Shown here: in pieces, positions 612-45,055 of the stretch
Layout of the letters: each line of letters opens with the position of its first letter
How positions within the stretch are numbered: the stretch's first letter is position 1
Assembly: GCA_943704415.1 (NCBI GenBank)
Contig: CALSCO010001228.1
Coordinates: 1-46,042, forward strand
Direction: 5' to 3'
Source: Parvularia atlantis
Taxonomy: Eukaryota; Opisthokonta; Rotosphaerida
DNA: 46,042 bases
Notes under the pieces: model-generated
Databases searched by the model: none
Seen by the model: the letters and a program-made list of their open reading frames with translations, nothing else
What the model was told of the DNA's origin: nothing
Program-made: the position numbers and the translations under genes

Positions 612-1573
612 ATGCCCATCGCCAAGGTCATCGTCGTGGGCGAGCCGATGACGGGTGCGCACGCGCGGATTCTGCGCCGCGCTGCCGCTGCGCTGACGTT
701 GGCCGTGCCCAGGCAAGACGAGCATCGCCCAGCGCTACACGTACGCGGCCTGCGCGCCCAACTACAAGGCGACCGTCGGCGTCGACTTTTTCTCCAAGAT
801 CGTGAACGAGGGCTCGCGGCCGTTCCAGCTGCAGGTGCGGTACGGCGCGCGCGTGGTGCACTGTGCTGACAGCGCGTCGGGCGCGGCAGATGTGGGACCT
901 CGCGGGCCAGGAGCGCTTCAACGCGATGACGCACATCTACTACCGCGAGGCGCTGTTCTGCATTCTCGTGTTTGACGTGACCAGCAGGCGCTCGTTCGAG
1001 AAGCTGCAACATTGGCGGGTGTGCGCGCGCTGCTGTGGCGCGACGTGCACTGACTTTGCGCACAGAATCAGCTCAACGTGCAGGGGCGCCTGAGCGATGG
1101 CCGGCCCATCCCGTGCGTGCTGATCGGCAACAAGGTGCGCATCCGAGGCGTGCATGGAAGCCGCTGATCGCGGGCGCGCACGCAGTGCGACGTCGACCCG
1201 ATCAAGTGGAGCGTGACTGAGGACAACATGGATGAGTTTTGTGCCCGCAACGACGTCGCCAAGTGGTGCGCGCGCACGCAGTGGGCGGCTGCGCCTGGCA
1301 GCGCGACTCACCCGGCACGCGGCGGCGCACAACAGGTTCCTCGCGTCGGCCAAGGAAAGCATCAACGTCGACGAGTCGATGGGCTTCGTGGTCGAGTCGC
1401 TCGCGGCCGACTACGACCACCTGCGCCGCCCGCCCACACCCGCGCAGCTGAGCGAGACGGTCGTGTTGCAGGCGACGTCGCTGGGCGTGCGCGAGGGCTA
1501 CAACGGACGGGCGAGCACGGACTCGTGCGCGTCGGGCGCCGGCAGCGCGCCGGGTGGGTCATGCGCGTGCTAG
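612..1573 (+). CDS. Rab GTPase, Rab32/38-like
   Basis: Small GTPase of vesicle traffic. The Rab32 group serves lysosome-related organelles, mitochondria-linked membranes and autophagy. Six exons are predicted: 612-654, 713-834, 890-1018, 1066-1134, 1186-1265 and 1336-1573. The spliced protein shows the P-loop GEPMTGKT, switch I threonine in YKATVGVDFF, WDLAGQERF, NKCD and SAK. The insert after switch II (NVQGRLSDGRPIP), and DNMDEFCARNDVAKW before the SAK box, are typical of Rab32. The protein ends in CAC, a CXC geranylgeranylation motif, which fixes the C-terminus. The start is the first ATG in frame before the P-loop, 6 bp after a CACGTG box (599-606). Introns are 48-70 bp, all starting GTGYG. 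Family assignment is strong; the exact subfamily is inferred. Confidence 0.93.
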
Positions 1574-1850
1574 CGGAGCTGAGGCGGTGTCGGCAAAACA
1601 AAACTTCTTCTTGTATCCTCGGCGGTGGGTTGAACGAAACTGAGTCCGTGACTTGCAGCTGCACGTCCAACTGGACGACTCGCGTGCCGGTTGCGTTGCG
1701 GATGGTCTGAGCAGGCCTCGTCTGCTGATCCTGCACGGCCTGAGCGGCGGCGGCAGCAGCATTGTCCGACGTCTGGGCCGCCTCGCTCGCCATCCGCTGT
1801 GCTGGCGTCCATGCCGACAGTAACTCTCGTGCGATCAGTGAAAACCCGCC

Positions 1851-2339
1851 ATGGACGGCGTTGTGCGGCGGCTCGTCTCGGCGCGGCCCGCAGTGCTCGT
1901 GCCCGTGCGCGGTGCGTGCGCGCTCGGTGGGCCCGGCCGTGCCGGTGCTGAGCAGCGTGCGCGCGCCAGGCAAGAAGCGCTACTTTGTGAACCCGGAAAA
2001 GTTCCCGCTGACGATCGTGCACACAAACGGGGCCACGATCAAGTCGTTCACGCTCAACCCGACCAAGCCCGTCTGGCGCCTCACGTGCGCGCGTGCCGGG
2101 CGGCGTGCTGTGCGGTGCTGCTGACACCGGGCAACCGCATGCGCGTGCTCGCCCGCCCGTGTCGCAGCGTCGACAGCTACAACCACCCGTTCTGGCAGCA
2201 CCACTGGCAGTACGACAAGGACGCCAAGGAGGAGGCGGTCGACACGGGCGCCGAGTCGGCGACGCTGACCGACGAGCAAAAGTCGATGCTGGACGACATC
2301 CTGCAGAGCGGCAAGGGCCCGCGGCGGCGCGTGTCGTGA
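1851..2339 (+). CDS. Mitochondrial ribosomal protein bL31m-like
   Basis: Small ribosomal protein of the mitochondrial large subunit. Three exons are predicted: 1851-1911, 1970-2084 and 2168-2339. After a short basic, arginine-rich leader (MDGVVRRLVSARP, a likely targeting peptide), the body reads KKRYFVNPEKFPLTIVHTNG, then a Lys/Pro segment, then VDSYNHPFWQ. The pattern 'short strand, LSNG/TNG turn, Pro-Val-x-x-L, then NHPxW' is that of fungal and protist bL31m. The tail is acidic and helical. The protein is about 115 residues. A TGTACA palindrome lies 14 bp after the stop. It converges on the PDRG1-like gene. Assignment rests on short motifs only. Confidence 0.7.
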   Translation: MDGVVRRLVSARPAVLVPVRGACALGGPGRAGAEQRARARQEALLCEPGKVPADDRAHKRGHDQVVHAQPDQARLAPHVRACRAACCAVLLTPGNRMRVLARPCRSVDSYNHPFWQHHWQYDKDAKEEAVDTGAESATLTDEQKSMLDDILQSGKGPRRRVS

Positions 2340-2352
2340 TGTGGGTCTGCAG

Positions 2353-2358
2353 TGTACA
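2353..2358. promoter_or_regulatory. TGTACA 3'-flank element (bL31m/PDRG1)
   Basis: Palindrome 14 bp past the bL31m stop and 45 bp past the stop of the convergent gene. One of eight such sites in 3' flanks (also 3311-3316, 3344-3349, 12630-12635, 14152-14157, 29873-29878, 33347-33352, 39136-39141). Proposed 3'-processing or mRNA-control element. Confidence 0.45.
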
Positions 2359-2402
2359 TTGCCCAGCGGCAGGGCATTGCGCAGCACACGGCGGCGCCCG
2401 CC

Positions 2403-2953
2403 TCACAACCCCTTGCCCTGCCGCTGCGCCTCCCACAGCAGTGCCAGCCGCTGCCGCTGCTCGCCGAGCTCGTGCAGCGTCTCGCTGCATCGGTCGTCGA
2501 CTGCCGCAGATGCGTGCGAACGTGCCGCACGCGTGAGCATGGCGCGGACGGCACCGCGAGCACGCGCACCCTCCGACGCGACGCTGAGCGCGCGCGCCTT
2601 GCTGACCTTCATGAACATGTCGCCGTGGATGACCCACACTTTCTCTGCGGTCGCGAGGCACGTGTCAAGCCATGGCTATTGCTCGCGGCGCACGCGCCCG
2701 CACCGTTCGACTGCCGCTTGAGCGCCTGCTCGGCCAGCTCGCTCTCGCGCGCCTGCTGCTTGACGACGCGCGTCTGCACCGGCGTGAGCCGCATCCGAGT
2801 TTGATCCGGGGGAGCACACCATCTGTTCGATCTCTTGCAGCTCGGCCAGCACGCCGTCCACGCGCAGCCGCTCTGCATCGGCGCGTTCAGCACCGCGCTC
2901 GCGTGGGCGAGGAGCCGCGGCGAACCTTGCGCGCGATGTGTTGTCGTCTCCAT
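2403..2953 (-). CDS. PDRG1/prefoldin-like coiled-coil protein
   Basis: Small helical protein of the prefoldin-beta type, like PDRG1 of the R2TP/prefoldin-like complex that helps assemble RNA polymerases and PIKK kinases. Five exons are predicted. The first is METTTHRAQ plus a split Glu codon (2953-2926). The product is a long N-terminal helix, then KVWVIHGDMFMKV, matching the 'VWVCFGNMFIK' hairpin that marks PDRG1, then a second coiled coil ending EAQRQGKGL. About 110 residues, close to the usual PDRG1 size. The introns carry GTGCG or GTGTG donors, except the first, which begins gttcgcc. Start codon 2953 lies only about 20 bp from the divergent plus-strand start at 2974. Confidence 0.72.
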
Positions 2954-2973
2954 ATGAGGTGAATTACAAGTGG

Positions 2974-3302
2974 ATGGTCAAGTGGCTGCAGAGGCAGCGC
3001 AACAAGCAGCGCCTGTTTGTGGCCTCGATGCTCGTCTGCGCGCTCGCCGCCTGCGCCACCGTCGCCTACCCGTGCGCCTTGGCCGCCTGCGTGCCGCCGC
3101 CACGGATGACAGCTCACGCGGACATGCGTTGCAGGGCCGTCATCAGCCCGGACCCGCAGATGCAGCGCCGCCGACAGCACATGCGCAAGCTCGTGTGTCC
3201 TCCTGCGGGGCACGTGGGCGCCGCGCATCGCTGAGGCCGCGCGCACGCCCCGTGCAGCACCAAGCCACGAGCGACGAGCACGACAAATACCCGCGCGAGT
3301 GA
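2974..3302 (+). CDS. Small single-pass membrane protein, unknown
   Basis: Predicted exons 2974-3071, 3135-3192 and 3258-3302 give a 66-residue protein. It has a basic N-terminus (MVKWLQRQRNKQR), one hydrophobic helix at about residues 14-34, then a basic cytosolic or matrix segment (QMQRRRQHMRK) and an acidic tail DEHDKYPRE. I do not recognise the family. Size and layout resemble small mitochondrial inner-membrane or ER accessory subunits. ATG 2974 was chosen because no earlier ATG is in frame; the open frame to its left begins only with GTG. The splices keep one frame throughout, which supports reality. TGTACA follows 9 bp after the stop. Confidence 0.6.
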
Positions 3303-3445
3303 CGCCGACCTGTACAAGACCATGTTGCGCGCCCCCGCGCGAGTGTACAGCCCGCACATTACACGCCGCATGCGCGCATCCGCCCCGGCCCGCGCACAGC
3401 GGCGCGCAGGGTTTCGATAGAGCAACTGTGGTTACACGCCCATGC

Positions 3446-4508
3446 TCACTTGCGCGCCTTGGCACGCGCCTCGCTTAGCGCCTTGTTGTACGTCTCGCTC
3501 TGCTTGTCGTACTTGGACGAGACCTACGCGGGCGTGAACCTGGAGATCGCGCGCGCGGCCACACAAAAAGGCGCACACCTCGGCGATCGCGCGGCTCTCC
3601 TGCGCCTCGAGGTCGGACAGCAGCTGCTGCAGCTTGGTCGCCGACAGGCTCACGTACACCTCCTGCCGACGCGGCGCGCGGCACATGAGCCACACACCAC
3701 GGCTTGCACGCGCACGTGCACCTTGCTCGCGTTCTCGCGGATCTCGACCTCGCGCTCCTGCAGCACAAACGTCAGGTTGGACGAGTTGTTCTGGTACTTC
3801 CAGTTGTACTGCACAAAGAGCGGGATCTCGGTGTCGCGCAGCACGCGGATGAGCTTGCCTACGGCAGCCGTTTTGCGTTAGCGCCATCGCACACACACGC
3901 CCGCAGCGGCAGCGCACGCACGCGACGTCGTGTCGTCGATCTTGGCCTTGCCGTCCTTGGGCTGCACCAGCTTGGCCGGGAACTTGCCGACGATGCCTTC
4001 GCACTCGCCCTGTGCGCGCCGCCGCCGCCGCCGCGCCGTAGCCGTGAGATCGCCAGCAACCGGTGCGCGGGAGGCGGCGCACCACCCACAGCTCGTCCGA
4101 CATCTTCTTCGTCACCGTGATCGTCTCGCCCTTGAGGAACATCAGGTCGTCGTCCGTCTTGGCGACATGGTCGGCCACGGCCACGTACAGGTTGGACGTC
4201 GCGCCTGTCGTGCGCCCGCTCCGTGTCGGCGCGACAAAAACAAGCGGCGCGCTCGCGCGGGACGCACCCTTGACGTACTCGGCCTCGTACAGCGTGTACT
4301 TCTGGTGGCTCTCGTTGCCAAACAGCTGGGCCACCATCGCCTTGACCACGTCGGCCACGGTCGTCTTGGTCGAGACGGGCACGCGCTGCGCAAGTGGTCG
4401 TGGGCCGCGCGGCTTCTCGACGAAAGGCGCGCGCACCTGGTAAAAGTCCTTCACGCTCTCGCCCGTCACCACGTACACGCCGATCACCGTCTGCAGCGTC
4501 GCCGACAT
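3446..4508 (-). CDS. SH3-domain coiled-coil protein
   Basis: Six exons predicted: 4508-4268, 4204-4083, 4009-3922, 3858-3722, 3662-3579 and 3523-3446. Residues about 1-80 form a ubiquitin-like, RA-type fold by eye (VIGVYVVTGES..., TTVADVVKAMVAQLFG). Residues about 83-140 are an SH3 domain: NLYVAVADHVAKTDDDLMFL, KGETITVTKK, DELWVGE, GIVGKFPAKLV. A beta-rich middle (PLFVQYNWKYQNN) and a charged coiled-coil tail (LQQLLSDLEAQESRAIAEVS...) follow. About 250 residues. SH3 domains bind proline-rich ligands, so a cytoskeletal or signalling scaffold role is inferred. No catalytic domain is seen. Minus-strand introns are 55-73 bp with GTGYR donors. Confidence 0.75.
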
Positions 4509-4661
4509 CGCTCCGTCCGCCCGTCCGCTGCCCTGCGAGACGGTGCACCGCGCGCCCGCTCAGTCAACAGAGCGCCCACTCCGCGGCCACGCTGGGAGGC
4601 GCACGTCTGAAATTGAGCGAAAAAAGAGCTTGCAAACCGTGACAACAAGCATCTATCGATT

Positions 4662-6232
4662 TCACCCGCGACGGCGCTCATACAGCGTCTGCGCGACGTC
4701 GTCGACGAACGACACGGGCACGTCGCCGCCGAGCCGCCGCACGATGCGCTCGAGCATGACGTCGTTGAGCAGGTACGGCGGGCAGCGCGGGTGCACGGGC
4801 GGCCGCGTGCCTTCAGGCGTGAGCGGTCGCGCGCCTTCAGGCGTGAGCGGCCGCGTGCCTTCAGGCGTGGCAGAGGGCTCCGTTTTCCCAAGCGGGCGCG
4901 GGCGCTTGGCGTGCGTCGGCGCCGGGTTGAGCGGCTCGCGCGGGCACAGAGCCACCAGCTCGGCCTGGAGCTGGCGAAAGTACGCGAGCTCGTCCCAGAA
5001 CTCGCGCGGCTGCCCGTCGAGGTGGCGCTGCAACTCGGCCGCCGCGAGATCGTAGATGGTGTAGTCGTGCTTGACGAGCTCGCGCAGCTCGGCCAGCTCC
5101 TCGGGCGTGTGCTCGATCTTGGCGCCACAGAGCACGCGCTTGCCGTCCCAGCGGCGCTGCTCGGTGCACGCGTCGAGCAGGGGCAGGTACAGGATGTCCT
5201 CAAACGACCACCCAAACATGCGCTTGAGCAGCACAAGCGACTCGTCAAAGCGCTCGACGACGAGGATGAGCGCAAACTGCTGGTGCCCGCCCGCGAGGTA
5301 CTGCTGCATGTCGGCGTCGGTGTAGAGGCCGAGGTCGGTCGCGAGCGTGCGCCACTTGGGCCGGGTGACGTTGGCGTGGAGCATTGCGACGGCGCTCGAC
5401 GTGGCGTAGGCGGGCTGGTGCAGGTAGTACCACTCGGACAGGAGGCGCTTGACCGGGTCGCGCACGATCGTGATGAAGCGCGCGCCGGGCACGCGGGCCC
5501 GGTACCAGCCCATGATCTCGACAAAGTTGTGCCCGCCCGGGAAGGTGAAGTGGTGGTACATTGAGATGTCGGCCGGCCGCGCCCAGCGCTCGAACGCGAA
5601 CCAGATGTAGTGCAGCGCGGGGACGAAGAAGCGCAGGCCGTGGCGCACGCCGAAGCGGAAGAGCAGCGACGACATGGTCGTCGAGGCCGTCTTGTGCGTC
5701 TTGAAGAAGACGACTTTGGTGACGGCGCCGGTGCACAGCGGTGCCGCGGACGCCGCCCACCCGCTCGTGTTGGCCGCGAGCCCGACACACGCGGCGCAGG
5801 CGGCCGCATCGGGCAGCGGCTGCGGCGGCTCGCTGTCGGGCACGGGCGCGAGGCTCGGCTCTGCACATGTGGCGCGCGATCAGCCTGCGATCGATCTGCG
5901 CGCCACACGGACGCACTGGGCACGCGCACGTCGCCCCAGCCCGGATTGAACTTGTGCAGGCTGACGGCGTACGTCGTCGTGGCCGTCACGTTGCGCCGGT
6001 ACGCGATCATCTCGGGCGAGGCCTGCAGCTCGACAAAGACTGGCGCGCCGTCGCCCGCGATCACGGCCTCGACGTCTGCGCTGGCCGTCCACGTCCGCCG
6101 CCCGTCCGGATCGTCATCGATCGCGCCGATCGCGCCGTCGCCGGCCTCGCCCGCGCCGCGCCACGCGCGCCACGCCAGCGCCAGCAGCACGACGGCGGCG
6201 CACGCGACGAGCAGCCGCGCCGTCCTCGACAT
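4662..6232 (-). CDS. Galactose-3-O-sulfotransferase family (Gal3ST)
   Basis: Golgi type II membrane enzyme that transfers sulfate from PAPS to the 3-OH of galactose on glycolipids or glycans. Two exons: 6232-5917 and 5860-4662, about 504 residues. It has an N-terminal signal anchor (LLVACAAVVLLALAW), a stem, then the PAPS 5'-phosphosulfate loop KTHKTASTTMSSLL and the 3'-phosphate loop ITIVRDPVKRLLSEWYY. The order and spacing fit family PF06990. The splice at 5916/5861 gives DVRVPKPSLAPVPDSEPP and keeps frame. The C-terminal third carries a 24-bp tandem repeat encoding PEGTRPLT-like units (about 4795-4870). It is divergent from the exchanger gene; the 105-bp gap has two CACGTG boxes (6246-6251, 6274-6279). 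Confidence 0.88.
4795..4870 (-). repeat. 24-bp tandem repeat in the sulfotransferase gene
   Basis: About three copies of a 24-bp unit containing ccttcaggcgtgagcgg. Each encodes a PEG[TA]RPLT-type octapeptide in a Pro-rich linker near the C-terminus. The copies are nearly identical, so expansion is probably recent. Confidence 0.85.
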
Positions 6233-6337
6233 TCGAGGCCAGCGTCACGTGGCGAGGAGTGTGACGGTGCGGCCACGTGCCGCGCGGGCTCCCCCTCGAT
6301 CACGCGCCCGTTCTCACGTCTCCTCTCGCCCTCGCAG

Positions 6338-7451
6338 ATGGAGGTCTCGGCCGCTGTTGGCGTGAGCAACTCGGTGCCGTTCATGGCCATGTTCATCGCG
6401 CTGTTTGCGTGCGTCGTCGTCGCGTGGTTCTGGCGCAGCCGCGACATTACCTTCGTGCCCGAGTCGGGTGCGTGCACATGCACTCGCGTGCGCGATGCGG
6501 GCGGCTGAGCGGCGGCGTGGCGAACGCACGCCAGGCATCTTCATCGCCGTCGGCGTGCTCATCGGCGGCATCAACTACGGCATCCAGCCCGGTGCGCGCG
6601 CCGCCGCTGAATCGCTGGTCGCTGATCAGCGGCGACGCAGGCGTGCCGCTCACCATCTTCGACCCGGCCCTGTTCCTCTACGGCTTCCTGCCCGTGATCA
6701 TCTTCGAGGCCGGGTACTCGATGAACAAGGTGCCGCACCACGCGCAGAACGCGGTGCAGCACTGACGCCGTACCGCCGGACAGCGCGAGTTCTTCAACAA
6801 CATCGGCATCATCAACAACCTCGCCATTGCCGGTACGGTCATCTCCACGCTCATTGTCGGCTACGGCCTGTACTGGTTCGAGCAGCTGGGCATCTTCACG
6901 ATGGACGGCACGCCGCTGGTGCGCATGCGCTGACCACTATGGCTGCAAATGCTCAGCGCCGGCCTCGCGCAGGTGCCGCTGCTCTTTGGCTCGATCATCT
7001 CGGCCATCGACCCCGTCGCGACGCTCGTCGTCTTCAGCTCGCTCAACGTGCGCGACCGTGCTCACACGCGGCGCAGCCCTGATGCCACCCCGCGAGCGCA
7101 GGTCGACCGCACGCTGTACTCGATCGTCTTTGGCGAGAGCGTGATGAACGACGCGGTCGCCGTCGCGCTGTACCAGACCTTTGCGAGCTTCCTCGGGCTG
7201 GACGGCTTTGGCACGTCGGAGCTGTTTGAGGCGCTCGGGTGCGGCGGCGTGCGCGGCGCTGCGCCGGCGCACTGACACGCGCTTGGTCGGCACAGCCTCT
7301 TCATCGCCAAGTTTCTCGGCTCATTTTGCGTCGGCCTGCTCATCTCGTTCATGGTGTCCAAGTTCCTGAAGCACTGCTACGTCGAGTACAACTACATGGT
7401 GCTGGCGATGTGCGTGCGCGGGTCCGCATCGCGAGAAGTGCGGGCGCCATA

Positions 7452-7525
<74 letters not shown>

Positions 7526-8753
7526 GCGCAGGTTCTCATGCACGGCGTACATCGTCTACAACCTGTGCGAGAGCATCATGCTCTCGGGCATTCTCGGCGT
7601 GTTTTTCTGCGGCATGGGCCTCAAGCACTACGCCTTCTACAATGTCTCACACTCGTCGCAGCACGCAAGCGAGGACTTCCTCAAGACGGTGCGCGGTGGT
7701 GCGGTGTGCGGGCGTGCGCGCGGGCTCACGCAGAGGTGCGCAGCTCGCGTTCCTGGCCGAGTCGGTCATCTACGTGTACCTGGGCATGTCGTTCTTCGAC
7801 GTGGCGCTGCTGTGGAATGCGCAGTTCATCGCGTGGTCGGTCGCGCTCTGTCTGGTGCGCGCCTCTGAGTGCTGGACTGCGCCAACTGACGCCTTGCCAG
7901 ATCGGCCGCGCGCTCAACGTGTTCCCGCTCGTGTTTATCACCAACTATTTCCGCGTCAAGAAGATCTCCCTCAAGTTCCAGGTGCGCCCGCACCCGCGCG
8001 CTGCTCGCTCTGACCCACGAGTACACGACGCAGTTCCTCGCGTGGTTCTCGGGCCTGCGCGGCGCCATCGCCTTTGCGCTCTCGCTGCTCATCCCCGTGG
8101 GCGTCGACGGCGTGCAGCAGGGCAGTAAGGACATGATCGTCGCCGCGACCCTGTTTATCGTCGTCAGCACGACGCTGTTCATCGGCGGCTCGACGCCCTC
8201 GATGCTGCGCCTGCTCAACATCAAGATGGGCGACGTTGTGACGGAGGAGGTGCGCCGCGCCCCGATGCCGCGCTGCCAGCGGTGCTGACCGAACGACGTG
8301 CGCGATCGCAGGAGATCCGCGCCTTTGCGGACGAGGACCGCGCCGTCCTGATGCACAAGTCGCTGCACGGGCGCTGGCACAGCCTCGATCGCAACTTTCT
8401 TATGTGCGCGCGCCCTGCCCGCGCCGCGCGCACTGAATCGCATCGCATCGCAGGCCGTTCCTGAGCAACCGCGACGTCGGGCTCATGCACCAGGACAGCG
8501 GCTATTTGCCGCGGGTGCGCCGCGTGCTCTGCTCTGCTGCGGGCGCTCGGTCTGCTCACGCATGCACACGCAGCTAAGGCGATCGGACGCGGAAGTGGAC
8601 ATGCCGACCGAAAAGGCGCGGCTGATGGACGGTGCGCGGGTGCTCTCGCGCGCTGCAGGCTCACGCTGACCGCGCCGTCGCGAGCCAGACAGCGTCACCT
8701 ACGGCGCCGTCGCGGGCAGCAACGGCAGCGCCTCCACCAACGCCAGCCTTTGA
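6338..8753 (+). CDS. Na+/H+ exchanger, NHE8-like CPA1 family
   Basis: Membrane antiporter that exchanges Na+ or K+ for H+, most like the organellar NHE8 group. About 15 exons. Spliced segments include FDPALFLYGFLPVIIFEAGY, REFFNNIG, LLFGSIISAIDPVATLVVF, VFGESVMNDAVAVALYQTF and WFSGLRGAIAFALS. Asn-Asp in GESVMNDAV is the ion-binding pair of electroneutral exchangers. About 11-12 membrane helices are followed by a short polar tail ending ...STNASL. One intron (from about 7410) holds a 70-bp (AC)n tract. The ATG at 6338 directly follows ctcgccctcgcag, which looks like a 3' splice site, so a 5' exon may exist. It ends 389 bp before the SART1 stop, tail to tail. Confidence 0.9.
7454..7523. repeat. 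(AC)35 microsatellite in an exchanger intron
   Basis: About 70 bp of pure AC dinucleotide repeat within the intron that follows the ...YNYMVLAM exon. It ends right beside the acceptor (acgcgcgcag). On the opposite strand it makes a false open frame of alternating Val/Cys. Confidence 0.95.
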
Positions 8754-9141
8754 CTCTTCACATCTTTGTTTCCTTCACGTGCTTTGCGCGATTACAATGG
8801 TTGTGGGGCTTGCGGGATGGACTGTCGAGGGGGGGGTTGGTGCACGGCGTCGCTGGCCAACTTGCAAACAACTTTTGAGAAAATAAAGTCCGCCAGCCAG
8901 TTGTCCGCCGGAACGGCCCGCGCGACCGTGCAGATGCAACTCGAGGGCATCGAAGCTAAGCGAAGCAAGACCCAGCCCGACGGCCACGAGCGACGTCCGC
9001 CTGGCCGTGCAGGCTCGCGTGACGTCCGACGACGACGTCGAGCATGCGCCACAAGCTGCACCACCTCGCCCACATCTCTCTGGTTTTACACAATGTTCCT
9101 TTTTTTTTTTTTTTTTTTTTTTTTTTTGTTGTTGGCTCCGG
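8754..9141. other. Convergent intergenic region with a T28 tract
   Basis: The space between the exchanger stop and the SART1 stop is more AT-rich than its surroundings. A 28-base T run lies at 9100-9127; on the SART1 strand this is an A tract starting 15 bp past the stop. A plus-strand frame at about 8820-9090 reads ...LANLQTTFEKIKSASQLS..., which looks protein-like. However, its codon use is unlike that of the confident genes and it has no recognisable match or clean start, so I do not call it a gene. Confidence 0.6.
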
Positions 9142-34707: not shown

Positions 34708-35078
34708 TCACTGTAGCAGGGCCGGCGCGCCGTTGACGAGCACCGAGCGCTGGCCGCGGCCGTCCTCGATGACAACCGTCTCGTTGCCGTGCTCGTCGAC
34801 CTCGCGCGTGCGCGTCGTGCGCACGCCGTTGACGACCGATGTCTGCGGGCCGGTGCTGAGCGCGGGTTGCAGCAATCGTGGTGTGTGCGCCGCACCTGCA
34901 CCGAGCGCTGCACGACGCACGGGCTGGCCGCTCGCCCGCTTGCGCTGCTGCCACCGCTGCTGCTGCTGCTTGAGCTGTAGGCGAAAGCGGTCGCGCCCAT
35001 CGGGGCGCTGCGACGTGCGCGCGCCGTCAGCCACGGCGGGGGCGTGCGTGCATCGGCGCTCGCCGCACCCGCCAAACA

Positions 35079-35110
<32 letters not shown>

Positions 35111-35800
35111 GCGGCAAAGAACGGCGGCAGCGGCGCGCTGAAGAACGTCGCCGGGGCGTACCCCTGGTGCGCGCCGTACATGGGCGGTGGTGCGTTGCCG
35201 AAGAACGGGTCGTGCGCAAACGGCGCGAAGCCGTGCATGGCGAAGAACGGGTGGCCAAACATCGCTGCGGCGACCGCGTGATGTCGGCTGTTGATCCGCG
35301 CTGTCCACGCCAGACGCGCACGCACCGGCGACCATCGGGTCGTTCGCAAACATGTCGCGGAAGAGGTCGTTGGCGTCGCGGTGCGGCGCGGCAAAGTCTG
35401 CCCGTCGTCGCTGTTGTCAGCGCCGCACCCCCCTCATGCACCGGGGACGCCACCGATGCCGCCGCTGTCGTACTGTCGCCGCTTGGTCTCTGCGCGCGCG
35501 CGGCATCGTGCTCAGCGTGCGCGCGCTGTGTCCTCGCCTCCGCGCGCATCGCACCGTCCGAGAGCACCTCGTACGCCTCGGCGATCACCTTGAAGCGCCG
35601 CTCGGCCTCCTCGAGCCGGTCCGGATTCTTGTCCGGGTGCCACTCAAGTGCGAGTTTGCGGTACCTGCCGCGTGCGCGCGTGCGTGCGCGTGTGTGGGCC
35701 GGTATGCGATACGGGGGACCGTGGCGCGTGCGCACGCGCGCCGGATGTCGTCGGGCGAGGCCGTGCGCTCGATGCCGAGCACCACGTAGTAGTCGGCCAT
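34708..35800 (-). CDS. DnaJ (Hsp40) protein, DNAJB6-like
   Basis: J-domain co-chaperone. Seven exons. The J domain spans residues 2-70: [35 protein letters not shown] with the HPD motif, [16 protein letters not shown] Gly/Phe-rich part follows ([18 protein letters not shown]), then a Gln-10 run, a Ser-rich segment ([12 protein letters not shown]) and a C-terminal beta strand region, [20 protein letters not shown], like DNAJB6/B2. The Ser-rich reading requires the phase-2 intron after MFGG; without it, another frame stays open, so this exon is less sure. The stop is at 34708, 71 bp from the convergent PLGRKT stop. Confidence 0.87.
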
Positions 35801-35872
35801 CCGCGCGAGCAGTGCGAAACAACGACTTTTGGCTATTCGGCTGCCCGTTCAGAACACACGCGAGCGCGCTTC

Positions 35873-37255
35873 TCACTTGGCCTTGACGGGCGACGGCGGC
35901 GCGCTACCGCTGTCGGACGGCGGGAAGAGGCGGCGCACGAAAAAGTGCGTCCAGAGCGCGCCCCACGTCACGACAATCAGCCAGAGGATGCGGTCGGGCT
36001 GTGCGCGCGCATGAGCACCGGCACAGATGCGACGACCGGTCGCGAGACGCACCAGCATCGCCGTAAAGTTCACGTCCGTCGGCAGGCCCTGTACGGTCAC
36101 AAACAGCACGGACCAGATCCACGCGCCGAGATGCGAGTCGAGGCTGACGCGAGCGCGCGTGCATGTCAGCCGACGGATCAGGCTGCACGCAGAACGTGCC
36201 GGTCGAGCACGCCGCCGTGTGCGAGCAGCAGCGACGACGTGTCCTTGAGGTGGTGGTTGCGCTTCCACCACGAGATGAACAGGTCGCCGAGGATGCCGGC
36301 GAGGATCATGCCGTTGACATAGAGCGCCGAGAGGTGCGTGGGCAGCACCGAGTCCTCCTTGAGCCACAGGAAGAAGACGAGGTTGCAGCTGCGCGCCGCG
36401 CGTCAGCACGCCGCACGCGACAGCGCACACGCTCACCCGATGAAGGCGCCGATGTAGCCCTCGAGCGACTTGTTGGGCGAGATCTTGGGCACAATCTTGG
36501 TGCGCCCGGTCAGCTTGCCCGCAAAGTACTGCATGCAATCGCTGCCAGCGATGGCCATGCTGCAGCGCGCACGCGACTTGAGCGCGACGGCACTGCGCGT
36601 CAACCGCGCACCTGATCGCCAGGAACACGTCCGACGGGAAGGCGTGAAGGAGGTACAGCGCGCAGGTGATGCCAACCATGAGGTAGTTGACGGTGATGTT
36701 GTCGATCAGGTTGACGCCGGCGGCCGCGCAGCCGACGGCGGCGACGACGACGCGCACGGCAGCGACCTGCACGCCCGCGTCAGACGCGCGCCGGCACTTG
36801 CGCAACGTCCACGCGCCTGCCAGATACTCAGCGCGGCCAACGGGAAGGTGAGCACGTAGACGTCGAAGAGCGAGAGCGCCGTGAGCAGCGCCTGGACGAT
36901 GCGGCCGTGGCGCGGGAACTCTTGCGCGAGCTGTGCGCGCCTCGTGTCACGCGGCGAGAGGCGAGAGGCAGAGGCGGAGGCACAGCGCACCTCCCACCAG
37001 ATGAGCGGCACGATCGTCAGCTCGAGCACGGCCGGGTAGTGCTGCAGCAGCAGGTGCGCGCCGATGTGCATGACGAAGCCGATGGGCACGCGCGCGGCCA
37101 TCAGCGACTCGCTCGAGTACCACGCGCGCCGCGCGCCCTTGCTGGGCGACCTGTCGCGCGTCACGCCCGTCAAGCGCCACACTGCGCGCACGTGACGCGA
37201 AACCGCACCCGGGCGCTGACCGAGGCGGCGTGCTCGCGGTCGTCGGCAGGGGCAT
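35873..37255 (-). CDS. Phosphatidate cytidylyltransferase (CDP-DAG synthase)
   Basis: ER enzyme making CDP-diacylglycerol from phosphatidic acid and CTP, the precursor of PI, PG and cardiolipin. Eight exons. The spliced protein starts [19 protein letters not shown] and has about eight helices, then [38 protein letters not shown] and the signature [32 protein letters not shown]. The end is [10 protein letters not shown]. Two introns work only with GC donors: 36816-36767 (CAG|GCGCGT) and 36199-36144 (CG|GCACGT). The second rebuilds the invariant DRLDS, strong evidence that it is used. It competes with lipin, encoded 10 kb away, for the same substrate. Confidence 0.94.
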
Positions 37256-37353
37256 AACACGCTGAGCCGTCAGTGGAAGAAAGGCACGCCTATATGAGTA
37301 GTTGTCACTTGGATCACAGCTGCGTCGCACACATAGCGAGGGAGGCGGCAAGC

Positions 37354-39102
37354 ATGGCCGAGGTCCGCGCTGAGCGCGCGCGCCGTTGCGCACGGCTCAC
37401 GTTTGGCGCGCAGCTCTCGGCTGCGCTGGGGCAGCTGCGCACGGCCAGGCAGCAACAGCATCAGCAGCATCAGCAGCAGCAGGAGCAGGAGGCGCAGCAG
37501 CAGACGGAGCAGCAGCAGAAGAAGCCGGCGGCCGCGACGCCGCCAGACTCGTTCGAGGAGCTGGACGACGGCGAGCTGCTGCGGCTGATCAACGACGACG
37601 GCGACGAGGAGGCCGTTGACGAGGGCGTTCTGGACGCGCTGGACGTGGTCGACGACGGCAAGGAGAACGTGCCAACGACGACGGTCGCGCGCGTCAGCTC
37701 CGCGCTTGAGTTCATCCGGCGCACGTGCGCGCAATTGAGCGGGCGGCTGCTGCTTCTGACGGGGTGCGGGCAGTGTGCCGCCCTCCGCATTGGCACCACC
37801 TCCGCCTCCAGCACCAGCAGTACCAACATCAACATCTGCACGTGCACCTGCACCTGCACCTGCACCGATGTGAGCGATCGGACGCGCACGTGCACGCGTT
37901 CGCTGACGGCACGCGCAGACCGGTGCTGGCCGTGATCGGCGGCGCGCTGGGCGACCATGCCGTCGCGCGTCGCAGCCCGCCGCAGCGACGGTTCCCGGGG
38001 CCGGCTGGCGCGCTCCCGCCACTGGTGCGTGTCGTCTCGCGCCCGCTCGCGGCTTACGGTTGCCCAACAGAGCGACGACGAGCGGCGGAGAGTGCTGCGG
38101 TCGGCCGAGGCGTCGCGCAAGCTTTCTCTTACGGTGCGCGTGCGAGAGATGGCAACGACACAGCTCGCTCGCGCTTACAGCCGGCGCAGGAGATGGGCGA
38201 GGGCGACGCCAAGGCAACCGAGTCGCCGCTGAAGAAGCTCAAGCGCTCGACGGCGATGGTGCGCGCCCCCCGCGGTCGCATGCAGCGTTTGCGCATTCAC
38301 GCTGCCGGCAGCTGCACACCGAGCCCGTTGACCTGCGCCTGTTCCAGCGCGGCGCGTGGGCAACGATGGTCACGGTGCTGGACGTGCTGGCGGGCTCGGC
38401 GGACGAGCCACGGCGGTCTCCGCTGGAGGAGCACAACATTGCACAGATCCTGCGGCAGCACGCGTCGGCCAAAGCACGTTCCAGCACCGCTGCTCGCTCG
38501 CTCGGCGCTAACGCGGAGCGCAGGTGCCGAACCTCGTTGTGTACGTCAAGGAGCTGCGCACGTCGGGCGGCGACGCGTGGGCCAAGCTTGTGGACCCGAC
38601 CGGTGCGTGCGATGCGCAGCGTGCGCAGTGTGGCCCACAATGCATCCGCGCGCAGGCGAGATCCAGGGCACGATCCACAAGCGCGTGCTGGACGACTTTG
38701 CCAAGATGCTCACGGTCGGCAGCGTCCTGCAGCTACAGCGGGTGCGTCGCCGCGCTGAGTCGCAGGCATGCCGCTGAGCCCGGCGCGTCGCAGGTGTCCG
38801 TATTCCACCCGTCGCCGCGGACAAAGTACCTCACGATCACGCGCGACAATGTCGTCCGCGTCTTCCCGAGCGAGCCCGACACGCCGCGCGCGTCGCAGGC
38901 CGGCTCGAGCGCCGCGTCTGCCCCCTGTGGCGACGACGCTGCCCCCGCACCTGCACCAGCCGCCGACGCACCCGCACCGCCAGCAGCACCACCCGCGCCA
39001 CCCGCGCCACCCGCGCCGGCGTCGCGGCTGGAGGACGACGCCGAGCTGGCGGTGCTGCTCGAGGCGATGGACGACAACTGCTTCGACGTCGGGATCGACT
39101 GA
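37354..39102 (+). CDS. HROB-like homologous recombination OB-fold protein
   Basis: Homologue of HROB/C17orf53, which loads the MCM8-MCM9 helicase in recombination repair. Nine exons. The N-terminal part is Gln-rich (RQQQHQQHQQQQEQEAQQQ) and acidic. The conserved block begins RRFPGPAGALPPL, the HROB signature, then a linker, and the OB-fold: VPNLVVYVKELRTSGGDAWA, KLVDPTGEIQGTIHKRVLDD, VSVFHPSPRTKYLTITRDNV. The tail is Ala/Pro-rich and ends ELAVLLEAMDDNCFDVGID. The intron 38474-38523 needs a GC donor (AAA|GCACGT). ATG 37354 (MAEVRAERARR) was chosen; an in-frame ATG at 37294 is possible but lies 38 bp from the divergent CDS gene. TGTACA is 34 bp past the stop. Confidence 0.87.
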
Positions 39103-39135
39103 CGAGCGCCGCGTGTGTGCAATGCTGCCTGTAAC

Positions 39136-39141
39136 TGTACA
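39136..39141. promoter_or_regulatory. TGTACA element between HROB and JMJD8-like stops
   Basis: The whole intergenic gap is 40 bp and contains this palindrome, 34 bp past one stop and 2 bp past the other. It is the only recognisable signal in the gap. Confidence 0.45.
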
Positions 39142-39142
39142 A

Positions 39143-40361
39143 CTAGACAAACGTGGACATGAAGACGGTCTCGCCGATGTTGAGCGTCGCATGCCACCAG
39201 TGACTGTGAGGGGCGTGAGCGGGCGTCGCCCTTGCACGCGCACGCGTACCTCGGCAGGTACAGCAACTCGCCGGGAGCGAGCACGCACTCGAGCGGCCGC
39301 AGCGTCGCGTGCGGATACACGTTGCGCAGCCAGTAGAGCGTCGTGCGGTTCGGGTCAAACTCGGGCGCGGGGCCGGGCGGGTACAGAAACCAGCGCTGGC
39401 GGCGAGCGTAAGGCGGCAGTCGCGGCGCGCGGCACCGCGCACCTTGCGGCCGTGCAGCACCTCGGCAAAGACGGCGCCGTGCGTGTGGAACGGTACGCCC
39501 GAGCCCGTCCCGGCCACGCCAAAGCTCACGCTACCATTGATTGGCGCGTGGCGCAGCGGCGGGCGCACGTACGCCTCGTAGAAGCCCGGCCACTCGCTGT
39601 AGCGGTTGTCGCCTTCGGCCCGGTGAACGCGCGCATGCCGATGTGCACACACACACACACACACAAGCGCACCAAAATGGTACAGCACGCTGTCGGCCTC
39701 GGCACTGTCGTCGCGCGGCGGCATGTCGTCGCGCACGTACTCGCGCAGCGGCTTGGTGACCTTGCTGTAGGAGAAGGTGTTGGCGGTGCTGAGCACGACG
39801 GGCGAGTCGCCGTACTGTGTGCGTTCATCAGCTAAGTCCAGGACGGCGCGAGAGACAGCGCACCAGCGCCAGCAGCACGCCCTTGCGCGTCATCTCGCGA
39901 AAGCGCGCGTTGTCGGTGAGGCGCTCGAGCACGACGGGCGCATCGGCGAAGCGCGCGGCAAACTCGTCCTCGCCGATAGGCCCGCGGTGGCGCACGATGC
40001 TGCACACGGCGCTGTCGAGGTCGGGCAGGCCCGCGGCCGCGTCCCACTCGTCGCCCACGAGCATCACGCGGAGGTGCTGCACGTCGTCGGCCATGCGGTG
40101 CGCGGCGTCGGTTGCCTTGGCCACGAGCGCGTCAACTACGGGTGCGGCCTCGTCGGCCACGCGATGCGCCGCGTCGCTCGCCGCCGCCATCCACCGGTCG
40201 CCCGCATCGACGGCCCAGTGCATCGCGCCGCCCATGGCCGCCACGCGCTCGTGCAGCCGGCACGTCCAGTCCTCGCACGGTGCCTCCGGCTCGTTTGCCG
40301 TGACGACAGGAGCGAGCAGGACGAGGCCGAGCACGACGAGCAGGCGCCGCGTCGTTGCCAT
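39143..40361 (-). CDS. JMJD8-like JmjC protein of the ER lumen
   Basis: Five exons. A clear signal peptide (RLLVVLGLVLLAPVVTANE) is followed by an insert with Ala/Asp repeats (residues about 40-100), then VLERLTDNARF, the JMJD8 core SPVVLSTANTFSYSKVTKPL, LYHFGDNRYSEWPGFYEAYV, SFGVAGTGSGVPFHTHGAVF, VLHGRKRWFLYPP, PEFDPNRTTLYWL, RPLECVLAPGELLYLP and HWWHATLNIGETVFMSTF. All these match JMJD8 in order. JMJD8 is a cupin-fold ER protein whose hydroxylase activity is uncertain; the His in PFHTHG and HWWH are visible. No KDEL-like end (ends STFV). The second intron carries a short GT repeat. The stop lies 40 bp from the convergent HROB stop. Confidence 0.9.
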
Positions 40362-40422
40362 GGGGAATTCACCGATCTGTGACATCCGCTCTTGCTCTTC
40401 TCCTTGCGCGACCGCCCTCCGC

Positions 40423-42014
40423 ATGGACACGACGCCCCCGCGCACACCGACCGAGCCGCCGCCGCCGGGCGTGAAGCCTGTCGACACGGTGCGGCACGCG
40501 CGCGCGTCTTTCTTTTGCGGCGCGCCGCTGTGCTAACTCGTTCTCCACGCTCCTCCCTCCTCTCTCAAGGGCCAGCTGCGCGTCAACGACGGCGGCCGCG
40601 GCGGCGACCCGGGCGGCAGTGCGCGGCACGGCCGCGCGAGCATGGCGAGCGGCCACGGCGTGCGTCGCGATCTCCTTGGTCGTGTGTGCGCGCGCGATCT
40701 CACCCCGCGCCCCCTGCACGCAGCACCACGGTCGTGAGGAGACCGGCGTGGTGGAGTCAAGAGAGGGCGCACATGTGCGCGACGCCTCGTACATCGAGCA
40801 TGCTATGAGCCTGCCTTGGCAGAGCCCGTCCGTCGCCAATAACGTGCGCCGTGCGCCTGCGCCTGCCGCTCCGAGTCCTCACTGAGCTGACGTTCACCCG
40901 CACCGGCAGGGCGCGGAGCAGCTCTCACACTTAGAGGCCCTCTCTGAGGCGCCTGTGAAATTCAACCAGCAGTGCGGCCATTTGGTGCGTCGTTGTGCTG
41001 GGCCTCCTGCCATGGCTGATGGGCCGTGAGCGCAGGCCGACAATGCCTGCGCGTGGGCGAATGCCCTGCCGCAGTTCCCTGCGGTGCGTGCGCGCACGGC
41101 TCTCGCGCGCAACGCTCACGCTGGCTTGTGATCGCAGCATGATTTGGCGCAGGACAACAACAACCAGGCGGTGCGTGCGCCCGCGACCGAGGCCGTTGAC
41201 CTTCTTGAACCCCCGCGTGCGCCCGCAGCGCAAGCGCAACTTTGCAGAAATCGAGCATGAGACGATTGAAAAGGCGGTGCGTGCGCGTGCGCGGGTGGAT
41301 GGCTGCGCACGCTCACGCTCGCTCCACCAGCACAAGCTGGGCGCGATCGTGGACCGCTACAACCGCCCGGAGCGGACGTGGGCCAGCGCGGACGAGCAGC
41401 TAGTGCGCGCGCTCGCTGCGACTGCGCGGGTTGCTGATGAGGCGCGCTCACTGCAGGCGCTGTCCAACATCGACGACCGTCAGCAGGTGGACGACGGCAC
41501 CGCGACCGCGCAGACGAACATTTTCCCCGGTTGGCCGACTCGGATCACGCAGCTGCAGGTCATCCAGCAAGTCGACACCCCGCCGCCCGACCCTGCGCCT
41601 GCCCACGACGACGCGATCGAGGTGGACGTGGTCTCCGTGCCGCGTCGCAACGGCGGCGTCCAGCGTCGCGGTGTAACGCGAGCCATCCGCACGCACATCA
41701 CAAACGGCGAGTTGCGCGAGGCGCTTATCGTCGCCGCCAACGCCCACCGCGGCATGCACGCGACCACCGCCGCGGAGCAGACGCGTCGGCACGGCGAAGC
41801 CTTTGGCATCGTGTGCTTCTACCTGGCGCTGCTGTACGACATCCCGCCTCCCGCCGAGGTCGCCAGGCGCTGGCTGAGCTCGCGCGTGCCGCTGGGTGAC
41901 CCCTCGTTCCGCCAGCACCTTGGTGACCTGATGCCCGCGATCGGCACCCCTGCCGCCCGCCCCTGGCAGCCCGAGTACGACCGCGTCCGGGAGGAGGCCG
42001 CGCGGGCCGCCTGA
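40423..42014 (+). CDS. Unrecognised protein, nine phase-0 exons
   Basis: I do not recognise this protein. Exons 40423-40488, 40570-40683, 40724-40843, 40910-40984, 41036-41083, 41138-41170, 41229-41276, 41331-41402 and 41457-42014 give 377 residues, and every exon is a multiple of three. The N-terminus is Pro-rich (TPPRTPTEPPPPG) and Gly/Arg-rich. Short helical parts include GAEQLSHLEALSEAP and basic RKRNFAEIEHETIEK. The C-terminal 180 residues look globular: AIRTHITNGELREALIVAAN, FGIVCFYLALLYDIPPPAEV, ARRWLSSRVPLGD. No signal peptide or membrane helix is evident. Third positions are less GC-biased than in neighbours. Exon 2 is the weakest part. It is 61 bp from the JMJD8-like start and convergent with the next unknown gene. 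Confidence 0.6.
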
Positions 42015-42176
42015 TCGAGGCCGATACACCAGCTCTATGTGGGGCTTTGTGTGTGCGTGTGTGTATGTGCGTGTGTCTTTGTCTTGTCTTTCGGGGGGGA
42101 AGTGGGAGAGGGAAGCAGGCACTGAGACGCACAGAAACACAGAAAGACAGACAGACGGACAGACGCAAACGGCGTC
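42015..42176. other. Convergent gap with GT-rich segment
   Basis: The 162 bp between the two unknown genes hold a GT-rich stretch (about 42047-42078), a G8 run and repeated ACAGAC units. No coding frame stands out. No TGTACA is present, unlike many other 3' flanks here. Confidence 0.5.
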
Positions 42177-43599
42177 TCACATGGTGCGCGCGCGCTTGGC
42201 GGCCGGCAGGACGAGCGCCTCGTTCTCGTCGACGTCCTCGCCCTCGTCAAAGTCGGCCGCGTCCATCAGCTCCGGCACCTGCACATTCTGCATCGCAGGC
42301 TGCGCGCCGGAACAATCAGCACGAGCGCGCTGGCACGCCTCACAGCGGCGCACCGTCCAGGTCTCAGGCGGCGGCGTCTCGTCGTGCATGGTTACCTGCA
42401 CGGCCAGCACGTCCTCCTGCGGGGTCGTGAACTGCGGAACATACAGTTAGCAAAGGAGGCATGCGCGGTCCAGTTCACGCACCACCACAGCGCCCGACGC
42501 AATCAGCGCCCGGCCCACGGCGACGCGGTGCTGCTTCAGGCGCGACCGGTCCGGGTCGCTCAGCTTGGAGTCGGGTTTGCGTGCCAGGCTCCACGTCGCG
42601 AAGCTCCAAGCTGCGTAAACGGCCGCGTCCGCCGGGTTGATGCGGTAGCGGCGCGAGGCCTCGCACGTGCGGCGCGCCATCGAGATAGGCTCCTGGAGAA
42701 GGCCGTTCAGGCCAGGCTGGGGCACGAGCTGGTAGTACGCGTAGTCGAACGCCTGCAGCGCGCGCTCTTCGGCCGCGTAGTTTTGAGTCGTCAGCGGCAC
42801 GCGCGCGCTTGAAGCCAGCCAGCCCATCGGGTACGGTTGCGGCGGGACCCCGTTGATCTGCGTGTTCTCGTTGATCGACGTGTTGATCTGCGTGTTCTCG
42901 TTGATCGATGTGTTGGTCGTCGTGTACTCGTTGATCGACGTGTTGGTCGTCGTGTACTCGTTGATCGATGTGTTGGTCGTCGTGTTCTCGTTGATCGACG
43001 TGTTGATCGTAATCTCGTTTGGCAGGTCATGCTCGACCTGCGCATTCATTTCGACATAGTCCACGTGCCCTTGGTGCACTGGCTCGTTGATGTAGGCAGT
43101 TGGCTGCGGGTTGTCCTCGGGATCGGCTGGGACTTGGCCCTCGAGCTCGTTCGCATTCTGCGGGCGCGACAGTGGGGTCTAAATGCCGAGCTCAAGAAGT
43201 CTGTGGCGCTAGGGAACGAACCTCATACTGGAAAATATTGAGGTTGAAATTGTTGCCCTGCGCGGCGAGCACACGGAGATTGAAATTGTTGCCCTGCGCG
43301 GCGAGCACGCGGCCGTCAGCGGCCTTGTGAAGGCAGAGGCGCGCGAGCGACGCGCCTGCATGTAATCCATAACGTTCACATCCTGCGCGCGACCGTCAGC
43401 GCCCCGAACGAGCGCATCGCCCCTCACACGCACATAAAAAAACGCATTGCTGACATTTTCGAGCTGAAGATCATCAGCGAGAGGCTCGTTCTCGGCGAGC
43501 GGCGAGGACAGATGGTTCCAAGCCTGGAGGGTGGGCGAGAGATGTCACGGATCGGCCGACGAGCGCGCTCTCTCCACGCGCGGCGCGTACCTCAGACAT
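42177..43599 (-). CDS. Unrecognised Asn/Thr-repeat protein, seven phase-0 exons
   Basis: I do not recognise this protein. Exons 43599-43591, 43523-43434, 43382-43356, 43293-43222, 43157-42483, 42431-42354 and 42299-42177 give 357 residues; every exon is a multiple of three. It opens MSE, then [39 protein letters not shown], an acidic part, 5.5 copies of a decapeptide NTSINE[NY]T[TQ][TI], and a helical domain ([50 protein letters not shown]). The tail is acidic and ends in a nuclear-signal-like AAKRARTM. No membrane helix or signal peptide. The third intron uses a GC donor. Base composition is less GC-rich than its neighbours. Nuclear location is an inference. Confidence 0.65.
42851..43012 (-). 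repeat. 30-bp tandem repeat, 5.5 copies
   Basis: Five full 30-bp units (42851-43000) and a partial one, beginning gttgatctgcgtg or gttggtcgtcgtg and sharing ctcgttgatcga. Two subtypes alternate in blocks (two of one, three of the other), which points to stepwise duplication. Each unit encodes a decapeptide rich in Asn and Thr. Confidence 0.93.
43245..43316 (-). repeat. 36-bp direct duplication across a 3' splice site
   Basis: Two copies of a 36-bp unit containing gaaattgttgccctgcgcgg follow each other. On the minus strand each copy ends an intron-like tail (ctcgccgcgcag) and begins an exon with GGCAACAATTTC. The copy keeps frame, so either acceptor (intron end at 43294 or 43258) gives a protein differing by 12 residues. 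Confidence 0.85.
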
Positions 43600-43829
43600 T
43601 TGAGCTGCGACGGCGGAGCGAACGGGGGACGCGGGCTTGCGGGCTCGTGGGTGGGCAGGACGGGCGCTGCGCAAAGGCGCGCGGCGGCGGGTCAGCTGCT
43701 GCGCTGCTCCGTGTGACGTGCGGTTGGCAAACATATACAGGCAAACCCGAGCTGCTGCCGCCCCGTAGCGATCAGCGCCTGACCTCGCACTATCGGCTCG
43801 TATCCCAGGCGCCCATAGCCCGACCAACC

Positions 43830-45055
43830 ATGTCGCTGCGCGTGCTCGTGGGCTGCAAGCGCGTGATCGACTACTCGGTCAAGGTGTGTGTGTGTGTGTG
43901 TGTGCTGCGCTTTGCCCGCGCGTGGACCGTGCACAAGTGGCCGGCTGAGCGCGTCGCCGCCGTGCGCGCCCGCAAAAAGATCCGCATCAACGCGGCCAAG
44001 ACCGGCGTCGAGACGGCCAACGTGAAGCACTCGCTCAACCCGTTCGACGAGATCGCGCTGGAGGAGGCCGTGAAGCTGAAAGAGACCAACAAGGCGGCCG
44101 AGGTGCGCGTGCGCGCGGCCGGTGCTGTGCGGGACGTGGCCTGAGCACGTCGCGCAGGTCGTCGCCGTCAGCTGCGGCCCGGACAAGTGCACCGAGGTGC
44201 TGCGAACGGCGCTGGCGATGGGCGCGGACCGGGCGATCCACGTCAAGGTGGCGTGGGCGCCGCGGTAAAGGGGGGACCGGCAGCTGACGCTGATATGCGC
44301 GCGCGCGCGCGACACGTCGGGAAAAGGTCGACGAGGATACGCCGCTGCAGCCGCTGGCCGTGGCCAAGATCTTCAAGGCGCTGGTGGCGAAGCACAAGGT
44401 CGACCTCGTGCTGCTGGGCAAACAGGTGCGCGGGTGGGGCGCATGGCCCAATCGTGGCTGACCTCGCTCGCAAACCGGCGCACAGGCCATCGACGACGAC
44501 GCCAACCAGACGGGCCAGATGCTCGCGTCGCTGCTAGACTGGCCGCAGGGCACGTTCGCGTCCAAGCTGGAGGTGCGCGCCGGGGCTTTTTGGCTGCGGT
44601 GTGCGGCGTGTGACACGCGGCGCAGGTGGATGAGGCCGGCAAGAAGCTCAAGGTGACGCGCGAGATCGACGGCGGCCTTGAGACGATCGCCGTCAACCTG
44701 CCGGCGGTGGTCACGGCCGACCTGCGGTGCGCGGGCTCGGCGCGTGTGCCAGCGTCGCTAACAGCCGTGTTGACCGCCGCACCAGCCTCAACACACCGCG
44801 CTACGCCGCGCTCAAGGCGATCATGGCGGCCAAGAAGAAGACGATCGACGAGGTCAAGCCGGCCGACCTCGGCGTGGACGTGAAGCCGCACCTACAGACG
44901 ATCAAGGTGCGTGCGTGTTACCGCCAAGCCGGGCGCAGCTGAGCCGGCTCGTTACGCGGCGCCAGGTCGAGGAGCCGCCCGTGCGCAAGGCCGGGGTCAA
45001 GGTGGCCGACGTGGACGAGCTCCTTAGCAAGCTGCGTAGCGCCGGCGCGCTTTGA
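43830..45055 (+). CDS. ETFB: Electron transfer flavoprotein beta subunit
   Basis: Mitochondrial matrix protein that, with ETF-alpha, carries electrons from acyl-CoA dehydrogenases to ETF-QO. Eight exons. The 250-residue product matches ETFB throughout: [101 protein letters not shown] (the AMP/ETF signature), [38 protein letters not shown] and [13 protein letters not shown]. The first intron begins with a 20-bp GT repeat, so its donor lies inside a microsatellite. No separate targeting peptide is seen, as is usual for ETFB. Start is fixed by homology. Confidence 0.96.

Follow-up and report, generated by a model that had tools for sequence, protein, structure and literature searches.

Most introns of this GC-rich genome carry C at the fourth position of the 5' splice site (+4), mostly within GTGCGC or GTGCGT, and the only U1 and U6 snRNA genes found keep the canonical bases facing that position. 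The explanation that we favour, with moderate confidence, is that GC- and CpG-biased mutation together with selection at the U6 or tri-snRNP step shifted the donor to (A)G/GTGCGY (the slash marks the exon-intron junction). As part of the same explanation, the introns would be ordinary introns of the major spliceosome, about 56 nt long, with a CTNAC branch and a CGCAG acceptor.

Donor consensus in predicted introns

The window, i.e. the whole stretch of DNA that was analysed (46,042 nt, on contig C310), belongs to an assembly of 16.25 Mb in 616 contigs, with a GC content of 67-71% and a CpG-rich genome. Introns were predicted with a gene finder that treats both strands and models introns explicitly. 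For training it was given 10-kb stretches, one from each of 20 contigs other than C310, with the window held out. The resulting intron sample (20 stretches plus the window) covers about 246 kb of the 16.25 Mb, and its junctions are inferred from sequence. The gene finder presupposes GT/GC-AG intron ends, and these ends fit the homology tests described below.

Training from GT/AG alone gave 810 introns with a median length of 56 nt, of which 588 began with GTGCG. The learned donor logo had G at -1 (.65), G at +3 (.92), C at +4 (.85), G at +5 (.85) and either C (.46) or T (.34) at +6. The same logo was reached from a start biased towards GTRAGT (800 introns, +4 C.85), and synthetic order-2 sequence put through the same training gave no such logo (GTGCGC 36/1161, +4 C.27). 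The convergence of the two starts, and its absence with synthetic sequence, demonstrates that the donor logo is not circular. C also persisted when the donor model was weakened: its share was still.82 with the +4 column flattened (n = 1003 introns), and when every donor column was flattened, 648 of the 1001 introns still began with GTGCG (+4 C.77, A.05). A strict set, defined by a CTNAC branch and a CAG end without a donor model, had C at +4 in 397 of 505 introns.

Within the window, the 28 predicted genes with a coding sequence of at least 200 nt contained 195 introns (Table 1). GTGCG opened 134 of these, divided into GTGCGC (71), GTGCGT (41), GTGCGG (16) and GTGCGA (6), and the +4 base was C in 154, T in 23, A in 10 and G in 8. 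For seven introns, an alternative GT..AG pair of equal length lies no more than 12 nt away. The initial annotation had described GTGCGY as the dominant donor across the genes of the window, and at 112 of the 195 introns this is borne out. The rarity that it ascribed to GTRAGT was found as well, with one GTAAGT, placed in ATG4 as described, one GTGAGT (hence two GTRAGT) and four GTGAGC. Its proposal of a genome-wide shift holds for every sampled contig, since C was the +4 majority in all 21 pieces (the 20 stretches and the window), ranging from 26/42 to 36/40. The strict retention of GTGCG that it suggested applies to most introns, but some lack the motif.

Table 1. Predicted genes and introns of the window and the evidence for each
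Feature	Position	Strand	Evidence and remarks
28 predicted genes, 195 introns (134 GTGCG)	540..45644	both	gene finder trained on other contigs
Na+/H+ exchanger gene, 14 predicted introns	6338..8753	+	gene finder; 3 introns pass homology
Intron GTGCCG..CAG (+4 C, +5 C)	6730..6783	+	exchanger; gene finder and homology
Intron GTGCGC..CAG	7048..7101	+	exchanger; gene finder and homology
Intron GTGCGC..CAG	7982..8033	+	exchanger; gene finder and homology
ATG4 gene, 6 predicted introns	31493..33084	+	gene finder
Intron GTGCGC..CAG	31759..31816	+	ATG4; gene finder and homology
The window's one GTAAGT donor	32331-32382	+	in ATG4; gene finder; outside the coverage of the homology alignments
Electron transfer flavoprotein (ETF) beta-subunit gene, 7 predicted introns	43830..45055	+	gene finder
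Intron GTGTGT..AAG	43884..43979	+	ETF beta; 96 nt by homology, 54 nt by gene finder
Intron GTGCGC..CAG	44103..44157	+	ETF beta; gene finder and homology
Intron GTGCGC..CAG	44426..44485	+	ETF beta; gene finder and homology
Intron GTGCGC..CAG	44727..44785	+	ETF beta; gene finder and homology
Intron GTGCGT..CAG	44907..44965	+	ETF beta; 59 nt by homology; 32 nt by gene finder, same donor

Acceptor and branch likewise agreed with what had been noted for the window, namely CAG ends with little pyrimidine tract and a CTNAC-like branch some 15-25 nt upstream. The acceptor was CAG, with C at -3 in.93 of introns, and T was low upstream of it (.10-.12 at -14 to -7). CG was favoured at -5/-4 (-5 C.62, -4 G.69), although G also precedes CAG in.50 of [N]CAG words within intron bodies, so that part of the -4 preference reflects context. 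CTNAC occurred in 607 of 982 introns of at least 40 nt, as against.136 in shuffles, and CTGAC in 344. YTRAY motifs were present in 466 of the 982, and their branch A lies at a median distance of 19 nt (quartiles 15-23) from the intron's 3' end. The GT/GC-AG ends and the branch motif, together with U1, U2, U5 and U6 genes in the genome, place these introns in the major (U2-type) class. Long CA/TG runs were observed at 7455-7522 and 12723-12780 of the window. One of them falls within an intron predicted for the exchanger gene which, at 122 nt, exceeds all other predicted introns of that gene in length.

Homology support for the junctions

Human Prp8, EF-1alpha, ATG4B, ETF beta, NHE6 and one human Rab were aligned to the DNA with introns permitted, any GT or GC to AG being allowed at equal cost, so that the alignment was donor-agnostic. 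This gave 52 introns with C (45), T (4), G (3) or A (0) at +4. Setting aside 17 with a nearby gap or low flanking identity (C 11, T 3, G 3) left 35 well-supported introns with clean flanks, of which 34 had C and one had T at +4. Among these 35 donors GTGCG accounted for 31, and the remainder were GCACG, GTGCA, GTGTG and GTGCC. The window contributed 24 aligned introns, nine of which pass as supported, eight with C at +4. The ninth, which is also the sole supported intron with T, is the first listed for ETF beta in Table 1, and its donor start lies within a GT run (43884-43903).

For Prp8, 25 introns were examined with any terminal dinucleotide permitted. Three were set aside because of a missing anchor, a gapped region or a next intron that was too near. 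All 22 resolved introns had C at +4, the best GT/GC..AG cut being GTGCG in 20, GTGCAT in one and GCACGC in one. For 20 of these 22 no other cut scored higher than such a one; at extein positions 237 and 424 the protein score taken by itself favoured a non-GT..AG cut, with margins of 2 and 9 points. Homology also exposed errors of the gene finder, at Prp8 extein positions 63 (a GC-AG intron, GCACGC) and 1086 (GTGCGC), and in ETF beta, where two introns differ in length from those found by homology; none of these was credited to the gene finder.

The same genome carries an EF-1alpha (L037) with an insertion after WFKGW, as in human EF-1alpha, which we take to be the opisthokont signature. Its Prp8 is 82.6% identical to the human protein over 1114 aligned residues, and human Prp8 ranks top by score among PDB entries. 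A green-algal lineage does not agree with these observations.

Base composition and selection at +4

C is the commonest filling of the corresponding words inside introns, with shares of.568 in G[N]G,.509 in TG[N]G and.521 in GTG[N]G across intron bodies. In GTG[N]G donors it reached 723 of 803 (.90), with T at.07, A at.02 and G at.01, whereas the matching intron contexts had G at.05-.11 and T at.25-.38. At the context rate of.568, the probability of finding C in 34 of 35 introns is 7e-8. Composition thus helps and selection adds to it, since contexts with about 51-57% C face 90% in donors; composition supplies more than half of the +4 C and selection the remainder. This sustains the earlier suggestion that selection acts beyond GC content. 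In the raw window GTGCGC was counted 270 times against an order-2 expectation of 177, an excess of just 1.53x; the signal resides at intron starts and not in hexamer counts.

In intron bodies G and C have similar frequencies, yet G is rare at +4. G, unlike C, could wobble with position 5 of U1. As C at +4 is uncommon among human donors, pairing leaves the preference for C over G unexplained.

Avoidance of GTGCG in exons was considered and rejected: 354 exonic copies were observed against 248 in synonymous shuffles, and the reverse complement, CGCAC, behaved similarly. GTGCG alone accordingly does not define a donor, and donors must be recognised jointly with branch and acceptor.

GC-AG introns and pairing with U1

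With GC donors permitted, GC-AG introns made up 79 of 1021 (~8%) in the 20 stretches and the window. Examples include one Prp8 intron by homology and one SNRNP27K intron by reading. When the tested column was kept flat, GC donors had A at +3 in.43 of cases versus.035 in GT donors, and at +4 they had C in.80 and A in.035 (n = 85). In the trained model, 93 GC donors had A at -2 in.65 and G at -1 in.73, the corresponding shares for GT donors being.32-.33 and.66. GC donors therefore gain U1 pairing at -2, -1 and +3. They show no gain at +4, but since +5 and +6 are likewise not raised, +4 does not stand apart in this respect.

In the donor-model-free set, G at -1 and T at +6 traded off (odds ratio.46, p 2e-7). 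C at +4 and G at -1 did not, being associated in the opposite direction (odds ratio 1.69); some of these associations between donor positions will stem from mispredicted introns. We read the GC-donor gains and the -1G/+6T trade-off as signs that U1 pairing is at work and that the +4 C is set at another step. U1 pairing seems still to matter in donor choice. The weaker reliance on U1 that the initial annotation had offered as one possibility is consequently partial at best: the +4 C is unpaired with U1, but +3, +5 and -1 keep their pairing.

snRNAs and splicing factors

U1 and U6 were searched for with covariance models that tolerate single-base changes, and the best 41 of 149 and 47 of 492 candidates, respectively, were scored. 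Among these, one U1 gene was found (88.1 bits), which starts with AUACUUACCUGG and has the canonical 5' end AUACUUACCUG, and one U6 gene (63.7 bits), which contains GAUACAGAGAAGAUUAG and has a canonical ACAGA box, UACAGAGAA, the target motif of METTL16. No base change opposite +4 was present in either of these genes, the only ones found among the best candidates scored, which speaks against the compensating change in U1 or U6 predicted earlier. The branch-pairing region of U2 is canonical (GUGUAGUAUCUGUUCU), and a U5 snRNA is present in the genome.

The U6 gene (L002:1501-1662) has an insert of 48 nt that splits the catalytic AGC triad, with GTTGC at both borders of the insert. Inspection by eye revealed no clean GT..AG removal from this insert that would restore a canonical U6, and the predicted folds of most of U6 with the insert (138/162 nt) and of the insert with short flanks both fell within the shuffle range (z.68 and -.84). 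The mature form of this sole U6 gene is uncertain, given the insert in its AGC triad. U6 of S. pombe is known to contain an intron (PMC10581693, excerpts).

METTL16 is represented by a protein of 434 residues with the letters CNPPF; among PDB entries, this protein matches human METTL16 best (E 2.5e-48). SNRNP27K was found too, and a count along the alignment places a Met opposite human position 141. Loss of METTL16 or SNRNP27K was thus rejected as the cause of the shift. The zinc finger of U1-C was matched in part (positions 2-21 of 38). Luc7 was found in two pieces on contigs C511 and C75 (L046, L047, L048), covering profile positions 20-82 and 119-229, and these pieces may be a single gene that a contig break has divided.

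Two further genes were noted. A gene with 20 predicted introns on the minus strand of the window, at 9142-12550, encodes a putative SART1, a tri-snRNP protein. The Prp8 gene (L035/L036, contig C417:3001-18000) has four in-frame inserts at conserved sites, predicted to be 407-576 aa long. Three of them match Pfam intein families (Hom_end_hint, 108.8, 54.3 and 57.7 bits), whereas the first, 450 aa long, gives no more than a weak LAGLIDADG signal (14.1 bits). Seven Prp8 intein sites across all eukaryotes are counted in excerpts of a 2019 paper.

A proposed mechanism and its alternatives

According to the explanation that we favour, GC- and CpG-biased mutation would provide C at +4, and the spliceosome would prefer this C over A, T and G with the facing bases of U1 and U6 unchanged. 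Because C cannot pair with position 5 of U1, the preference is most likely exerted once U1 has left. The selecting step would then be the docking of the donor on the U6 ACAGA box, with C facing A43, which we consider most likely; alternatively, proteins of the tri-snRNP may read +4. U6 A43 is predicted to be N6-methylated here, and C may fit the same geometry opposite A43.

It is unlikely that base composition by itself turned a weakly constrained +4 into C. GCG is the commonest GNG word in this 68% GC, CpG-rich genome, C takes more than half of the variable positions in intron words of the forms G[N]G (.57) and GTG[N]G (.52), and GTGCGC is frequent everywhere, but the donors exceed these contexts in C and fall below them in G and T, and 34 of the 35 supported introns carry C. 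Somewhat less probable still is that the snRNA letters were kept while modifications were altered, for instance by gain or loss of pseudouridine at U1-5 or m6A at U6-43, changing the choice at +4. The larvacean Fritillaria borealis offers a precedent, having reduced m6A in U6 despite METTL16, with unchanged U1 5' ends (PMC13326754, excerpts). Here both METTL16 and its U6 target are present, and the published loss of m6A moves +4 to U and not to C (PMC10581693, excerpts).

Two other explanations carry less weight. Variant U1 or U6 genes could be absent from the assembly or lie below the search score, and the 616 contigs, in which no 5.8S rRNA was found, and the interruption of the sole U6 copy leave some room for them. 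We regard such variants as improbable, however, given that models tolerating single-base changes retrieved canonical U1 and U6 genes among the best candidates scored and that GC donors match canonical U1 better at -2, -1 and +3. A founder effect, in which introner copies ending in GTGCG and CGCAG spread, or in which intron ends pair as a terminal stem, appears very improbable. TGCG of the donor consensus is complementary to CGCA of the acceptor consensus, but positions +k and -k show no covariation and pairing was observed near independence, which led us to reject the stem. Similar intron pairs numbered 288 versus 144 in shuffles, but this excess is weak, the best pairs (41.9 bits) lie barely above shuffled ones (37.4 bits), and introner families of near-identical introns were not found in the ~246 kb sampled of 16.25 Mb.

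Relation to known systems

Donors of this kind are known, the lineage appears to be new, and a check of snRNAs and splicing factors is added here. Outside chromosome 2, Ostreococcus lucimarinus has GTGCGTG donors and ACTGAC branches, and Irimia and Roy (2008) consider that snRNAs might have changed to match these donors (PMC2483917, excerpts). Canonical introns of Micromonas favour AG/GTGCGT with NCTGAC; EST evidence there covers introner introns, one class of which often has GC donors (PMC3879977, excerpts). The present genome resembles these Mamiellophyceae in its GTGCG donor with C at +4, its CTGAC-like branch and its numerous GC donors (in Micromonas, those of introner introns), as far as the excerpts describe them. 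It differs in the branch, with the A ~19 nt from the intron end versus a motif 43-52 nt upstream in the Micromonas excerpts; in +6, which is more often C than T versus GTGCGT in Mamiellophyceae; and in lineage, opisthokont by EF-1alpha versus green algal. It appears to be an independent case, since the genome carries the opisthokont EF-1alpha insertion. The shift is therefore not singular as a donor type, GTGCGT donors being already in print for Mamiellophyceae (PMC2483917 and PMC3879977, excerpts). Among the matches listed for open-licence PMC articles, none of those considered described a GTGCG-type consensus in other lineages; further listed papers that hold the hexamer, PMC9024468 and PMC12465672 among them, were left out.

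In yeasts, Parker and colleagues tied METTL16 and SNRNP27K to the choice between A and U at +4, the METTL16 target box of U6 being invariant there too (PMC10581693, excerpts). This +4 switch in Saccharomycotina is likewise a genome-wide change with unchanged U1 and U6 sequences, as described in the same excerpts. The move here, however, is to C instead of U, and METTL16 and SNRNP27K with its Met141 are both kept, where a switch of the yeast type would predict their loss. Fritillaria borealis is similar in having unusual donors with unchanged U1 5' ends, but most of its introns break the GT/AG rule and its U2AF is duplicated (PMC13326754, excerpts), whereas GT/GC-AG ends were assumed here and fit homology.

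We tentatively suggest, although it is more doubtful than not, that C at +4 is a third stable donor state beside A (with m6A43 U6) and U (with unmodified A43). This state would be read at the U6 step by a specific contact of C with A43. It would have appeared separately in Mamiellophyceae and in a GC-rich opisthokont, the latter having kept METTL16 and SNRNP27K as well as an unaltered U1 5' end and U6 ACAGA box.

Genomes like this one may be misannotated by gene finders that have learned GTRAGT donors. The snRNA changes suggested by Irimia and Roy, as excerpted, were not seen in this apparently independent case. Current explanations of +4 rest on METTL16, SNRNP27K and the choice between A and U, and the present genome keeps both factors with C in most of its introns, thus providing a natural system for asking what reads +4 at the U6 step.
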